Notes under the pieces: model-generated
What the model was told of the DNA's origin: nothing
What the model saw: the letters and a program-made list of their open reading frames with translations, nothing else
Databases searched by the model: none
Position numbers and translations under genes: made by a program
Source: Crocinitomicaceae bacterium
GTDB lineage: Bacteria; Bacteroidota; Bacteroidia; Flavobacteriales_D; Crocinitomicaceae
Assembly: GCA_030833265.1 (NCBI GenBank)
Contig: JAURHO010000002.1
Coordinates: forward strand, 1-37,787
DNA length: 37,787 bases
Direction of reading: 5' to 3'
Part shown: positions 1,293 to 8,433 of the stretch, in pieces
Layout: the number at the start of each line of letters is the position of its first letter
Numbering within the stretch: position 1 is the first letter of the stretch

Positions 1293-1355
1293 ACGTTTGA
1301 AGGATTTATTCTATTTAAAATACGCAATTTAAAACAGATTAATTTGCGACTTTAA

Positions 1356-1392
1356 GCGCCCTGGTTCCATAGTTGGCAGGGCGCTTTTTTTT
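1356..1392 (+). terminator. rho-independent terminator
   Basis: Perfect 8-bp stem GCGCCCTG / CAGGGCGC with a 13-nt loop, followed directly by eight T residues. It sits 64 nt after the stop of the CsgG-like gene and before the cyclase gene, so it separates the two transcripts. Confidence 0.85.
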
Positions 1393-1414
1393 ATGTCGCT
1401 GTCTCTGCTTAAAT

Positions 1415-1443
1415 TTGCTTGTTAATCCTGAAGTTGTATCTTC
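1415..1443 (+). promoter_or_regulatory. candidate promoter for the cyclase-HD gene
   Basis: TTG, 19 nt, TATCTTC resembles the Bacteroidetes consensus TTG-N17-23-TAnnTTTG with a partial -7 box. It lies just after the terminator at 1356-1392 and 24 nt before the ATG. Weak match. Confidence 0.3.
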
Positions 1444-1467: not shown

Positions 1468-3045
1468 ATGAGCGCCTTGCTCTTTTTATTTATTTTCAAA
1501 TCTTGGTGGCTTTCTGGGCTTTTTGTTTTTGCGCTCCTTATTTTAATCTTGGTTTTTATTCGTAGACGTATTGAATCGAACCGCAGAAATCAAGTAAGGC
1601 TAGAGGTTAAAATTGCAGAACGCACCAAAGAAATCAGGCTCCAAAAGACCAAAATTGAAGAACAAAAAAGATTGCTCGAAGAAGAGAAAAACAAAGTCCT
1701 CGAGCAGCAGGCCTTACTGCAAGTTGAAAAGGACAAAACCGAACAATGGTTGCTGAACACACTGCCTTCGCAGGTTGTGATTGAATTAAAGCGCAATGGC
1801 AAGGTCAAAGCACAGGCCTTCAAGCAAGTTTCAATTATGTTCACTGATGTGGTGGGCTTTACACGAATTTCAGAGTCTATGGCTCCAAGCCGTATTGTCT
1901 CGAAATTGGACGTCCTCTTCCAAAAGTTCGATGAAATCATTCAGGCCAATAACCTCGAAAAAATCAAAACCATCGGGGATGCCTATATGTGTGCAGGTGG
2001 AGTGCCAGTTGAGAACTCTACCAATCCGATTGATGCTTGTTGCGCCGCTTTGCAAATTCAAGCTTTCATGGACAAGCTCAAATACGAGGCCATTGCCGAT
2101 CACGAAGATTATTGGGAAATCCGCCTTGGTATCAATACCGGACCTGTCATTGCTGGAATCATTGGAAATATTCGTTTGGCATATGATGTTTGGGGTTCTT
2201 CCGTGAATTTGGCACAACGCATGGAAATGCTTGGTGAACCTGGTAAAGTCACCATTACAGGTAATACTTTTCAGCACATCGAGCCCTATTTTGAATGTGA
2301 TTACAAAGGAAAAGCGCTGACCAAATCTCGCACGAAAGTTGACATGTACGTCGTGCAGCGCATCAAACCAGAACTTTCGGTCAATGGGGAGGGCTTGATT
2401 CCAAATTCTCGCTTTGAAGAAATCAAAAAGCTACATCATTACAGTTCTATAAAATATTATAAGGCTGAGCACCACGTGATGAACATTTTGGAAAAAAACT
2501 TGCCTGATGGGCTGCATTATCATTCAATTAAGCACACCAAAGATGTCGTCAAGTCCGTTGAACGCATTGCGTTGCTAGAAGGTGTCACCGATGAGGGGCT
2601 TTTCCTTTTGAAAACTGCGGCTATTTTCCACGATGCTGGTTTTATTGAAAAATACGATCACAACGAAACAATTGGTGCAAGAATGGCGCAAGAAATATTG
2701 CCGAAATATGGTTACACTGATCAACACGTCAAAACAATCGTTGAGCTCATTCATGCCACTGAAATTCCACACAAGCCGATTAATAAATTACAAGAAATCA
2801 TTTGTGATGCCGACCTCGATTACTTGGGTCGCGATGACTTCGAAATGATTTCAGATAATTTAAGGAAAGAGCTTACTGAAATGGGAAAAATCAGTGCTAG
2901 AAAAGAGTGGGACGAAATTCAAGTGAAGTTCTTGAATCAACACCAATATTTTACGCAAACTGCGCTACAATCTAGGCAAAAGAAAAAAGCCGAGAACCTC
3001 CAAACCGTGGTCGATCGCTTGGCTGCCGACGCCTATCAGGATTAA
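1468..3045 (+). CDS. membrane adenylate cyclase (class III) fused to HD phosphohydrolase domain
   Basis: 525 aa. Order: a transmembrane segment (about 13-32), a charged coiled coil (about 35-95, 'ERTKEI' start), a class III nucleotide cyclase domain (about 115-300) and an HD domain (about 335-510). The cyclase keeps both metal aspartates (D127 in FTDVVGFT, D171 in KTIGDAYM), the adenine-selecting pair K167 and D240 (YDVWG), and the transition-state N247 and R251, so ATP is the expected substrate. The HD domain keeps an H (around 350-354), H388-D389 (IFHDAGF), a later H (IHATE) and D (CDADLDY), so it should bind metal and hydrolyse a phosphoester or phosphoanhydride. The segment before the cyclase resembles the membrane exit of Bacteroidetes Y_Y_Y/7TMR sensors, but no periplasmic sensor domain is present. 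Transcribed alone; it converges on the DUF2490 gene. cAMP synthesis is well supported; the HD substrate is not known. Confidence 0.9.
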   Translation: MSALLFLFIFKSWWLSGLFVFALLILILVFIRRRIESNRRNQVRLEVKIAERTKEIRLQKTKIEEQKRLLEEEKNKVLEQQALLQVEKDKTEQWLLNTLPSQVVIELKRNGKVKAQAFKQVSIMFTDVVGFTRISESMAPSRIVSKLDVLFQKFDEIIQANNLEKIKTIGDAYMCAGGVPVENSTNPIDACCAALQIQAFMDKLKYEAIADHEDYWEIRLGINTGPVIAGIIGNIRLAYDVWGSSVNLAQRMEMLGEPGKVTITGNTFQHIEPYFECDYKGKALTKSRTKVDMYVVQRIKPELSVNGEGLIPNSRFEEIKKLHHYSSIKYYKAEHHVMNILEKNLPDGLHYHSIKHTKDVVKSVERIALLEGVTDEGLFLLKTAAIFHDAGFIEKYDHNETIGARMAQEILPKYGYTDQHVKTIVELIHATEIPHKPINKLQEIICDADLDYLGRDDFEMISDNLRKELTEMGKISARKEWDEIQVKFLNQHQYFTQTALQSRQKKKAENLQTVVDRLAADAYQD

Positions 3046-4315: not shown

Positions 4316-7300
4316 ATGAAACACTTACTACGCTCCATACTTTCCTCCTTGATTTTATGCAGTGCTATACCAGCATTTGGACAAGTAGTGATCAATGAAT
4401 ATTCTTGTTCAAATGTGACAGGAATTGTTGATGCCTATGGGGAACGCGAAGACTGGATCGAGCTCTATAACACAACGGCTGCTTCAGTAGATTTAACGGG
4501 TTGGTTTTTATCTGATAAAGCGACAAACCTAACCAAATGGCAAATCCCGAGTGGAGCCATCAATGCCAACGGTTTCAAAATGGTATTTTGCTCTAAAAGA
4601 AACACGGTAAACGGCACACAGTATCACCCAAACTTTAATTTATCTCAAACCGACGGCGATTGGATCATACTTTCAAATCCTTCTGCCGTGGTCGTGGATT
4701 CGTTTAAAATTGTTCACTTGACCAAAGCCAATCATTCTGTTGGGCGTTCAACGAACGGTGCTATCGATTTTAAATTGTTTACCACACCAACACCAAATGC
4801 CAATAATGCAGGCGGGGTTAACTTTTATCCACCCAAACCTGTTTTTAGTTTAGCACCAGGTTTTTATGCAAGTGCCCAGAGTGTCAGTATCACCTGTGCC
4901 GATCCAACGGCTACAATCCGCTACACCCTTGATGGCTCAGACCCAACCGCCACATCAACGGCCTATGCTGGTCCAATAAATATTCCGAGTACCAAAGTGC
5001 TTCGCGCGGCAGCTTTTGGCACTACTTTATCTTCTTTTACCGAGACCAACACATACTTCATTAATGTCAATCATTCCATTCCTGTCGTTTCTGTATGTTC
5101 TCAAGGCGTGTATAGTTTGGTTGCTAACGGAAGTCAGAATCCGCCTGAACGCATCGGAGCTTTTGAACTTTTTGAACAGGATGGCACTTTTATAGACGAA
5201 AGCGAAGGAGATTTCAACAAACACGGCAATGACTCTTGGGCTTATCAGCAAAGAGGTTTTGATTATGTATGCCGCGATCAATATGGTCAAAATGGCGATA
5301 TCGATCATCAAATTTTCCCGGAAAGGACACGCGATGGTTACCAACGCTTGATTTTAAAACCAGCCGCAAACGATAACTATCCATTTTCTAGCGGTGGCGC
5401 CCATATTCGCGATGCTTATGTGCATACGCTTTCAGACCGTGCTGACCTCAAACTAGATGAACGTACTTGGCGCCCATGTGTCTTGTATTTGAACGGAAGT
5501 TATTGGGGGGTTTACGAAATCCGTGAAAAGGCCGATGACCACGACTTCACAGATTATTATTATGATCAGGATAAGTTCAATTTACATTACTTAAAAACTT
5601 GGGGAGGAACTTGGCAAGAGTATGGCTCTCCGAATGCCCTACCAGCTTGGAATAACCTCAAGAATTATGTTGCTGCCAACAATATGGGAAATCCTGCAAA
5701 CTTTGCGTATGTAGATAGCTTGTTCAGCTGGAAGTCTCTTGTTGATTATTTTGTTTTAAACTCTGTTACTGTAACCACTGACTGGCTAAATTGGAACACC
5801 TCATGGTGGAGAGGCCTAGACACAACAGGAGACCACAAAAAATGGGGCTATGTACTCTGGGATCTCGATGCGACCTTCGGCCATTACATCAATTACACAG
5901 GCGTACCAAGCACCTTACCGAATGCAGATCCATGTAATGTAGAAAACCTACCAAATCCAGGAGGTCAGGGGCATACCGAGATTTTACAAAAGCTCATCAA
6001 TGAAAATCCAATAGTCGAACAATATTATATCGCTCGTTATATTGACCTTTTGAACACGAAGTTGTCGTGTTCGTTCATGATTCCTCTCCTTGATTCCATG
6101 TTGGCCGAAATTGAACCTGAAATGCCGGGTCAAATTGCAAAATGGGGCGGTTCCATGACCACTTGGCAAAACAACGTGTTGGCCCTCAAAAATTATATCA
6201 ATACCAGATGCGTTGCACTTACGCAAGGCCTCATCGATTGTTATCAATTGAGCGGCCCATTCGCAGTAACCTATGACGTCAGCCCAGCCGGAGCCGGCAC
6301 AATTCAAGTAAACTCTGTCAATCCACCGAGCTATCCTTGGGCCTCAAGCTACTTTGGAGGCATTCAAACTTTATTGGTCCCAACGCCAGCGCCTGGTTAT
6401 ATGTTTAGCCACTGGACCGTCACAACGGGGCCATTAGCGCTTCCTGCAACCACTGCCAATAATGCCATTACCATAAACGGTCCTGAAACTATTGTTGCTG
6501 TATTTATTCCAGACAACCCAGACCTAGATGGCGACGGATGTTTAAACGTCGATGAAATTCAAGTTGGCACAGATCCAAATAATCCGGATACCGATGGCGA
6601 TGGCGAAAATGACTGTGCAGAAATTGGTAATGTTACTGCACCTACTGATACCGACGGCGACGGCATCATTGACGCCCTTGAATCATCTATTATTGATACC
6701 GACGGCGATGGCGTAATGGACGAACTCGATCCAAATAACACAGATCCATGTATTCCGAACCCGAATGCTGGCCCTTGTGACCAAGATGGCGATGGACTTA
6801 CTAACACGCAAGAAGGATTAGCAGGAACGAGTCCGACGAATCCAGATACGGATGCTGATGGAATCAACGACGGGACAGAGGTAACAAATGGATCAAATCC
6901 ACTGAATCCTTGTGATCCAGATGACACTTTGCCTGGTTGTCAGATAGACACTGATTTTGATGGCCTCACGGACGCCCAAGAAGGCGTCTTGGGCACCAAC
7001 CCAACCAATCCAGACACAGATGGCGATGGCATCAATGATGGTGCTGAGGTTGCCAATGGCAGTAATCCGCTAGATCCATGCGATCCAGACGGCAGCAGCC
7101 CTGAATGTGCAACCGGCATTTATTTCCCGACTGCATTCTCTCCAAACGGAGTGGGGAATAACCTGAACGAATTTTATCAGGTAATAGCTGGTAAGGATAT
7201 CAAAGAACTCCAATTCAAGGTATTTGACCGCTGGGGAAATCTACTTTATGAATCGGGCAACAAACAATTCAAATGGGATGGCTCCTACAAAGGCAAACCT

Positions 7301-7393
7301 TGCAATAGCGGTGTGTATGCTTATATCTGTGACGTCACCTACGATACTGGTGCCACTAAAAAATTCACGGGTAACATTACCTTGATCAGATAA
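4316..7393 (+). CDS. secreted CotH-kinase-family protein with lamin-tail, TSP3 repeats and type B T9SS tail
   Basis: 1025 aa. Signal peptide to about 22 (AFG-Q). Then: lamin-tail-like domain (about 23-165, 'INEYSCSN...DWIELYN'); chitobiase/hexosaminidase C-terminal-like segment (about 175-245, '[11 protein letters not shown]'); CotH-like kinase region (about 250-630) with '[15 protein letters not shown]' near 344, '[12 protein letters not shown]' and '[13 protein letters not shown]' near 510, which resembles the metal-binding DxD motif of CotH; an InlB-B-like repeat (about 645-735); calcium-binding TSP3 repeats (about 736-930, DTDGDG units); and a CHU_C tail (about 934-1025, '[12 protein letters not shown]' ... 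'[12 protein letters not shown]'), which directs export by the T9SS. CotH of Bacillus phosphorylates spore-coat proteins; a surface-protein kinase role here is inferred. The PorP/SprF gene starts 2 nt after the stop. Confidence 0.88.
6779..7108 (+). repeat. tandem 162-nt TSP3 repeat pair
   Basis: Two 54-residue units (6779-6940 and 6947-7108), each starting at an Asp-rich DxDxDGL loop and ending at a Cys, with two codons between. By direct comparison 39 of 54 residues are identical. The TSP3-like Asp loops (NPDTDxDGINDG) are expected to bind calcium and form a rigid rod before the T9SS tail. Codons have diverged, so this is an old duplication. Confidence 0.8.
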
Positions 7394-7395
7394 TT

Positions 7396-8433
7396 ATGCG
7401 CCCAGAAAATAGAATATTCTTGTTTTGTGCGCTACTCGTACTTTTTTCAAGTGCAAATGCCCAAGATTTTCACCTCACACAAATAGAGCGCAGCGCGCCA
7501 TACCTGAATCCAGCATTTGTTGGTGCCTACAAAGGTTATGAGCGCATTAGTTTACTCAATCGCAACCAATGGATCGGTACGGGCACTCAGTTCTTGACTA
7601 GTTACGGAATGGCCGAATTTACGCCAGGCCGCAACTTATCTAAAGAGCGCGCATATGTCAGTATTGCACCAACCTTTAGCAATGACGTCGGTGGTGACTC
7701 TCGCATGACGCAACGCTCTTTCGGATTAACCGTAAGCGGGCACTTGCCATTGGCTAAGGGACACTGGCTTGACGCAGGATTACAAACGGCTATTCAACAA
7801 CGCAGTGCAGATTTTAGCAAGCTACTCTATTATTCTCAATGGAATGGCTTGAGTCTGGATCCTTCGGTTTTTTCTGGCGAAGAAAATGATTTTGTCAGCT
7901 TTTCTTTCGTCGATGCGGGCTTAGGTTTGGCTTACCGATATGAACCAAATTCAAGAGGTGAGTTGAAGGAAGGTCAGTGGGCACTTACCACAGGGCTTTC
8001 CATGCAGCATGTCAATAAACCTGTATTGCAATACAATTCTTTGTCGGCAGATCGACTTTACCAAAAACTGGTGTCTTATGCGCAGTTTAGTTTAGGCCTG
8101 AATGGTGTTTCCGCCTTGAAATTCAGTTTGGCTTATACCCGACAAGGTAGCCATCAAGAGGCAATTTTTGGCGCACTTTACCGACTCCAAATGCGTGGCG
8201 CATCTCAAATTACAAATGAAGTAAGCAATCGTTTTTTAACTGCTGGTCTATATTTCAGATCGACTGCTGCGCTATCGCCGTACGTCGCTATTGACTTTGG
8301 CGCCCTCGATCTTGGGCTGTCTTATGATGCCGATTTAGGGCGTTTGGCATCGGCATACAGAAATTCTGTTGAAGTGAACCTTAGTTATACTTTCAACAAG
8401 AAGTCTATGTTTAAAGGTAACCGTTTGTTTTAA
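7396..8433 (+). CDS. PorP/SprF family type IX secretion membrane protein
   Basis: 345 aa, signal peptide 1-22 (SANA-Q). The start of the mature protein has the family hallmark: 'APYLNPAFVGAYKGYERISLLNRNQW', ahead of a long series of outer-membrane beta strands ending in 'VEVNLSYTFNKK'. Family members PorP and SprF are outer-membrane proteins; SprF is needed to export its neighbour SprB, and type B (CHU_C) cargo often has a PorP/SprF gene next door. It begins 2 nt after the CotH-like gene, so the two are one operon and this is probably that protein's dedicated partner. Its 3' end overlaps the converging GH3 gene by 23 nt. Confidence 0.88.
   Translation: MRPENRIFLFCALLVLFSSANAQDFHLTQIERSAPYLNPAFVGAYKGYERISLLNRNQWIGTGTQFLTSYGMAEFTPGRNLSKERAYVSIAPTFSNDVGGDSRMTQRSFGLTVSGHLPLAKGHWLDAGLQTAIQQRSADFSKLLYYSQWNGLSLDPSVFSGEENDFVSFSFVDAGLGLAYRYEPNSRGELKEGQWALTTGLSMQHVNKPVLQYNSLSADRLYQKLVSYAQFSLGLNGVSALKFSLAYTRQGSHQEAIFGALYRLQMRGASQITNEVSNRFLTAGLYFRSTAALSPYVAIDFGALDLGLSYDADLGRLASAYRNSVEVNLSYTFNKKSMFKGNRLF

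Follow-up and report, generated by a model that had tools for sequence, protein, structure and literature searches.

CAPE (COMBINED AC with PDE) proteins of Marchantia polymorpha and other streptophytes contain an adenylyl cyclase and a phosphodiesterase (PDE), and both activities have been demonstrated (PMC5159850, PMC8115329). The PDE belongs to the HD superfamily, in which the mononuclear H..HD..D type includes YpgQ, YfbR, SpoT and the class I PDEs, and the dinuclear H..HD..H..HH..D type includes HD-GYP and PgpH (PMC8177086). Class I PDEs have the signature H(X)3H(X)25-35D/E (PMC4222275). BDPDE1, a plant protein of the YpgQ-like group, hydrolyses cAMP more effectively than cGMP (PMC8431786). 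SpdA of S. meliloti, a cyclase-linked predicted PDE, proved to be a 2',3'-cNMP enzyme (PMC4222275). In Pycsar systems, the pyrimidine cyclase PycC is accompanied by a PycTM or PycTIR effector, PycTM being a membrane effector domain (PMC11224242). cAMP signalling in Bacteroidota is poorly understood, and class III cyclases are common in the order studied here.

We analyzed a 37,787-nucleotide stretch from a Crocinitomicaceae bacterium (the window), which contains a gene for a protein with a class III cyclase domain and an HD domain (Table 1). We read the product as a membrane-anchored class III adenylate cyclase with its own predicted metal-dependent cyclic-nucleotide phosphodiesterase, and conservation, genomic association and fold lead us to give this reading a probability of roughly 55%. 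The closest working analogue would be the plant CAPE, which likewise joins a class III adenylyl cyclase to an HD-superfamily PDE in one chain; if the predicted PDE activity is right, the window protein would work like a CAPE without being one. The CAPE PDE is N-terminal and a true class I PDE domain, whereas the HD domain of the window protein is C-terminal, short (about 195 aa) and YpgQ-like. The window protein further differs in being bacterial, with a membrane helix and an ancestral propeller sensor, and the two fusions are not homologous. A limited literature search for cyclase-HD fusions in bacteria found nothing relevant, an absence that proves little, and automatic annotations of such proteins surely exist. 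What is new is the reading of the HD domain as a cyclic-nucleotide eraser, together with its association pattern, and not the existence of the gene itself.

Table 1. Features of the cyclase-HD gene and its upstream region (positions in the window)
Feature	Position	Strand	Basis or remarks
Cyclase-HD gene	1468..3045	+	525 aa, ATG start; orthologues at same locus in relatives
Single membrane helix, about aa 12-31	1501..1560	+	Kyte-Doolittle scan, sole hydrophobic stretch
Long signalling helix / coiled coil, aa 32-98	1561..1761	+	AF2 full-length model, continuous with membrane helix
Class III cyclase catalytic domain, aa 113-297	1804..2358	+	Pfam Guanylate_cyc; D127, D171 (metal), K167, D240 (ATP), N247, R251
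HD hydrolase domain (predicted), about aa 325-520	2440..3027	+	Pfam HD match aa 354-449, conservation, model, fold search
Y351-H352-x3-H356 motif	2518..2535	+	Invariant; class I PDE-type signature H(X)3H(X)25-35D
H388-D389 (HD dyad)	2629..2634	+	Invariant
D447-A-D449, candidate last metal ligand	2806..2814	+	Invariant
Intrinsic terminator of upstream gene	1354..1392	+	10-bp stem + T run, -20.8 kcal/mol, z -5.2
Possible Bacteroidota-type promoter TTTG-N19-TATCTTC	1414..1443	+	Spotted by eye, inference only

The reading frame stays open for 12 codons upstream of the ATG. Because the terminator lies between the upstream neighbour and the cyclase-HD gene, the latter is probably transcribed alone, as its own transcription unit; a promoter scan gave a result at chance level. 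The hydrophobicity scan, the AF2 model and Pfam bore out the description in the first-pass annotation of a protein with one membrane helix and a coiled coil and no sensor domain. In the full-length AF2 model (pTM 0.54, a value from which the packing of the HD domain on the cyclase is not readable), one unbroken helix (aa 13-98) joins the membrane to the cyclase, and its aa 32-98 part aligns with the equivalent segment of propeller-bearing relatives. Strong purifying selection was evident in comparison with L002, both in aa 1-300 (134 synonymous vs 12 nonsynonymous codon changes) and in aa 301-524 (100 vs 12). A split gene or frameshift was ruled out, as the nearest relatives share the same short frame and form one branch.

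The window protein and its closest relatives (≥82% identity) are about 525 aa long. In same-genus relatives at ≤74% identity, the open frame spans about 1300 aa and encodes, in order, Reg_prop repeats, Y_Y_Y, membrane helix, coiled coil, cyclase and HD. The sensor in these relatives is a ~790-aa Reg_prop/Y_Y_Y propeller like those of the hybrid two-component-like receptors of Bacteroidota, and it leads into the same membrane helix and coiled coil that the window protein has. Unlike in those receptors, the output is a cyclase-HD pair and not a histidine kinase, and in the window protein the sensor has been lost. In a phylogenetic tree, the sensor-less clade is nested among the propeller proteins of the genus (100/100 support), as sister to L069/L070 (98/94). 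The well-supported branches cannot be reconciled with fewer than three gains or losses of the sensor, the loss count outside the window's clade being approximate and the deep root of the tree uncertain. Propeller-bearing L030/L031 have the gene order of the window (LpoB-like gene, cyclase-HD gene, DUF2490, small gene, CotH, PorP, GH3), indicating that the sensor was removed in place. The sensor-less form is thus a derived, lineage-specific loss, and a cyclase-HD protein with a propeller sensor is the norm for both genus and family. Searches with tblastn upstream of the gene, in the window and in 19 relatives, detected no sensor remnant. A search for an orphaned sensor elsewhere in the genome (78% complete) returned a single Reg_prop protein, which was rejected as PorZ-like, with a C-terminal secretion domain and distant similarity to the lost sensor. 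In several lineages, the sensor has gone and the cyclase-HD pair has stayed. The architecture, for which the first-pass annotation proposed a search across Bacteroidota, is not peculiar to the window: it is kept throughout the genus and recurs in several of the order's families, and 54 fused proteins were compared. Further downstream in the window (4316-8433), a CotH-kinase/lamin-tail/TSP3 protein bearing a C-terminal domain for type IX secretion is encoded ahead of a PorP/SprF gene, a secretion pair that is commonplace in Bacteroidota.

The cyclase domain matches its Pfam model with an E-value of 7.6e-48 (163 bits, curated cut-off 21.9). All six residues earlier ascribed to its active site proved to be present at their positions, comprising two metal-binding Asp, an ATP-type Lys/Asp pair and the transition-state residues N247 and R251, and the domain is accordingly predicted from its sequence to make cAMP from ATP. 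The K167/D240 pair is kept in all fused cyclase-HD proteins save degenerate ones. No other class III cyclase was found in the source assembly (2.0 Mb, 78% complete). The protein resembles Pycsar components in having a class III cyclase, and relatives of its HD domain are fused to PycTM elsewhere in the phylum; however, its best match to PycC models was 2.3e-11, compared with 7.6e-48 for the general cyclase model. PycTM was not found in its own genome (78% complete). With this weak PycC match and no PycTM in the genome, assignment as a Pycsar cyclase or Pycsar member was rejected. Two variations in the cyclase site were seen among relatives. The R251 position is Gln in propeller-bearing L025, L026, L027, L039, L073, L076 and L078, with the remaining catalytic residues kept. 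Two cyclase-HD proteins (L121:4107-5495(+), L129:5312-6685(-)) lack the cyclase residues D127 and D240 and have a complete HD site; in these proteins a dead cyclase domain may regulate an HD enzyme.

The Pfam HD match has an E-value of 6.3e-5 and a score of 23.7 bits, just over the cut-off of 22. Conservation was examined in 22 HD domains down to 38% identity, and then in the 54 fused proteins. Residues Y351, H352, H356, H388, D389, E400, T431, D447, D449 and Y452 were invariant in the fused proteins, and H398 and H429 were freely replaced in both samples. Of the full H...HD...H...D set described previously, H356, H388-D389 and D447/D449 therefore stand as invariant, and the later His (H398 or H429) varies. 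By the rules of PMC8177086, the sequence motif places the domain in the mononuclear H..HD..D type; the dinuclear HD-GYP/PgpH motif is lacking, as H398 and H429 are unconserved. None of 2000 shuffles of the window protein yielded YHx3Hx(28-34)HD, showing that the pattern is not due to chance.

Structure prediction of the HD domain, a step suggested in the first-pass annotation, gave a confident HD-like fold (pLDDT 93.3, pTM 0.87). In a fold search, YpgQ and proteins like it came out as the nearest solved structures, at E 0.002-0.05. Directly behind them ranked the class I phosphodiesterases PDE4, PDE5 and PDE1, at E 0.025-0.09 and TM by query 0.45-0.63; the matches were weak overall (best E 0.002 for YpgQ, TM about 0.6). 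A PDB profile search recovered the same two groups, with 2pq7 at 4.5e-4 and PDE9A at ~0.8, a value meaningless alone. HD-GYP, PgpH and RelA/SpoT were absent from the listed profile and fold matches. The YpgQ group (PDB 5dqv, 5dqw, 2pq7, 3dto; plant BDPDE1) thus provides the best fold matches and shares the mononuclear H..HD..D site with HxxxH, but identity is only 16-20%, and these proteins are stand-alone, without a cyclase; B. subtilis YpgQ acts on (d)NTPs. The class I PDEs (PDE1, PDE4, PDE5, PDE9), which act on cAMP/cGMP, share their signature with the window protein, where it has one match, at H352. This signature is not discriminating, since the YpgQ ligands listed in PMC8177086 also fit it. 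The PDE catalytic domain is about 320 aa long, compared with about 195 aa for the HD domain, and the PF00233 (PDEase_I) model gave no significant match among the 22 HD homologues, one of which matched at E 0.049. We did not identify in the HD domain the glutamine that is conserved in the purine pocket of PDEs, and this counts against the PDE reading. Since YpgQ cleaves (d)NTPs and the YpgQ-like BDPDE1 hydrolyses cAMP, a PDE and an NTP pyrophosphohydrolase are both compatible with the structure alone.

The same HD family also occurs as an unfused ~195-aa protein, in which the metal and catalytic positions are likewise invariant. Among 150 genomes of the order, 114 contained both the HD family and a class III cyclase, 2 the HD only, 6 the cyclase only and 28 lacked both; for family f9, in which cyclase-HD fusions were not seen, the corresponding numbers were 18, 0, 2 and at least 13 (both sets uncorrected for shared ancestry). 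In L139-L143, L186, L189 and L194, unfused HD genes lie directly beside class III cyclase genes or in an operon with them. In five genomes of two genera, REC-cyclase and HD genes are convergent, with their ends nearly touching (L139:3786-5387, L140:3867-5524, L141:3428-5036, L142:3623-5232, L143:3472-5090). L189 contains a cyclase-cyclase-HD array in one direction, L186 a REC-cyclase gene followed after 14 bp by an HD-YitT gene, and in L183, L185, L190, L192 and L194 the HD lies within a few kb of a cyclase. Overall, a cyclase was present in the fetched stretch at 7 of 14 unfused, non-PycTM HD loci, which had been chosen by HD score only. A hybrid histidine kinase is encoded upstream of the REC-cyclase in L139 and L141, where this was tested.

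Frames of ~400 aa are common among HD matches across the phylum, and all seven such relatives examined were HD-PycTM fusions. The HD is N-terminal to PycTM in L132:4189-5397(-), L134:4202-5368(+), L151:4044-5276(+), L196:2847-4082(-), L197:3327-4565(+) and L199:2436-3662(-). This HD has been recruited on both the synthesis side and the effector side of cyclic-nucleotide systems, and its attachment to PycTM would equip the effector with a possible signal eraser.

The main rival to a PDE is a YpgQ-type nucleotide pyrophosphohydrolase, converting (d)NTP to NMP and PPi. In doing so, it might restrict the ATP available to the cyclase or couple cyclase output to nucleotide pools. YpgQ, which acts on dGTP and dATP (PMC8177086), is the top fold match and has the same mononuclear motif, including HxxxH. 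We consider this activity unlikely, because it leaves the specific association with cyclases and PycTM effectors unexplained, and the HD is only 16-18% identical to YpgQ in the fold alignment. Another possibility is that the HD hydrolyses another cyclic mononucleotide (cGMP, cCMP, cUMP or 2',3'-cNMP), clearing a different or salvage nucleotide beside the cyclase: HD-PycTM fusions exist, and known members of the PycTM domain family answer to cyclic pyrimidines (PMC11224242). HD enzymes with 2',3'-cyclic PDE activity are also mentioned among work cited in PMC8431786, and SpdA provides a precedent that in turn weakens the PDE reading, being a PDE predicted beside a cyclase that proved to act on the other isomer (PMC4222275). 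The attached cyclase, however, carries the ATP-type K167/D240 in all non-degenerate fused proteins and matches Pycsar cyclase models weakly, and we rank such a substrate below a (d)NTP in likelihood.

Lower again in our ranking is a nucleotide-binding regulatory module without significant turnover, binding cAMP, AMP or ATP and gating the cyclase. The C-terminal position of the HD beside the cyclase in one chain would suit this role, and sensor loss would leave a need for another input; however, a pure binder is expected to lose some of the metal and catalytic positions, which are all invariant, including in stand-alone HD proteins and in those with a decayed cyclase. The candidate substrates listed at the outset were cAMP, a cyclic dinucleotide, ppGpp or another nucleotide. 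Of these, a cyclic mononucleotide is now favoured. Enzymes degrading cyclic dinucleotides or ppGpp exist in the HD superfamily, but the extra His ligands of dinuclear cyclic-dinucleotide PDEs (rule of PMC8177086) are unconserved here, and the listed matches include neither HD-GYP and PgpH nor, for ppGpp, RelA/SpoT, making this by far the least probable of the readings considered.

We return to the reading of a cyclase paired with its own cyclic-nucleotide PDE. The HD outlives the sensor and, in L121/L129, the cyclase; it follows and adjoins cyclases; and it is fused to PycTM. These observations suggest that its function probably concerns cyclic nucleotides. The original proposal that one protein makes cAMP and removes a nucleotide signal accords with conservation and genomic association, and the hydrolysis itself is what we infer. 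In the proposed mechanism, the protein would dimerise through its long helix, and the cyclase would convert ATP to cAMP. The HD metal would be held by H356, H388, D389 and either D447 or D449, with H352 as the likely acid, and the HD would hydrolyse the same 3',5'-cyclic mononucleotide to the 5'-nucleotide, so that net cAMP output would be set locally by the balance of the synthesis and hydrolysis sites. In propeller-bearing relatives, a periplasmic ligand would shift this balance through the helix; in the window's clade, it would probably be set by nucleotide level, the membrane helix or expression. More tentatively, and at somewhat less than even odds, the HD may represent a so far unrecognised, Bacteroidota-wide family of cyclic-mononucleotide phosphodiesterases with three wirings: fused to class III cyclases as a self-limiting single-chain cAMP switch, encoded by a separate partner gene of cyclases, or joined to PycTM, where it would serve as a built-in brake on a membrane effector gated by cyclic nucleotides.

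If the HD is a phosphodiesterase, the on and off switches would reside in one protein, making the pathway testable with a single gene. Its presence on PycTM proteins would likewise suggest that cyclic-nucleotide effectors carry their own signal eraser. The propeller-bearing and sensor-less orthologues offer a natural pair for examining the effect of the sensor on the balance of synthesis and removal.

Candidate receptors were also considered. A simple pattern test did not find the canonical cAMP phosphate-binding motif in any of the three CRP-like proteins of the genome (L085, L086, L087), which were rejected as receptors, nor the canonical cAMP-binding motif in the CRP-like proteins examined in eight relatives. 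No canonical CRP-type cAMP receptor was thus found in the genus, which counts against the favoured reading. In other Bacteroidia, a recurrent set consists of a histidine kinase, a REC-cyclase, a YitT_membrane/DUF2179 protein and an HD (L186:2656-5158, L185:10211-14143, L194:3452-6066, L190:205-4639), the HD being fused to YitT-DUF2179 in L185 and L186. One idea is that DUF2179 is a putative cyclic-nucleotide receptor; as a general partner or receptor YitT/DUF2179 was rejected, since the window's genus lacks DUF2179. Next after a SpoIIE-type phosphatase gene comes a cyclase-HD gene in L122:5422-8726 but a stand-alone HD gene in L138:4907-7290, as though either type could stand in for the other within one operon.
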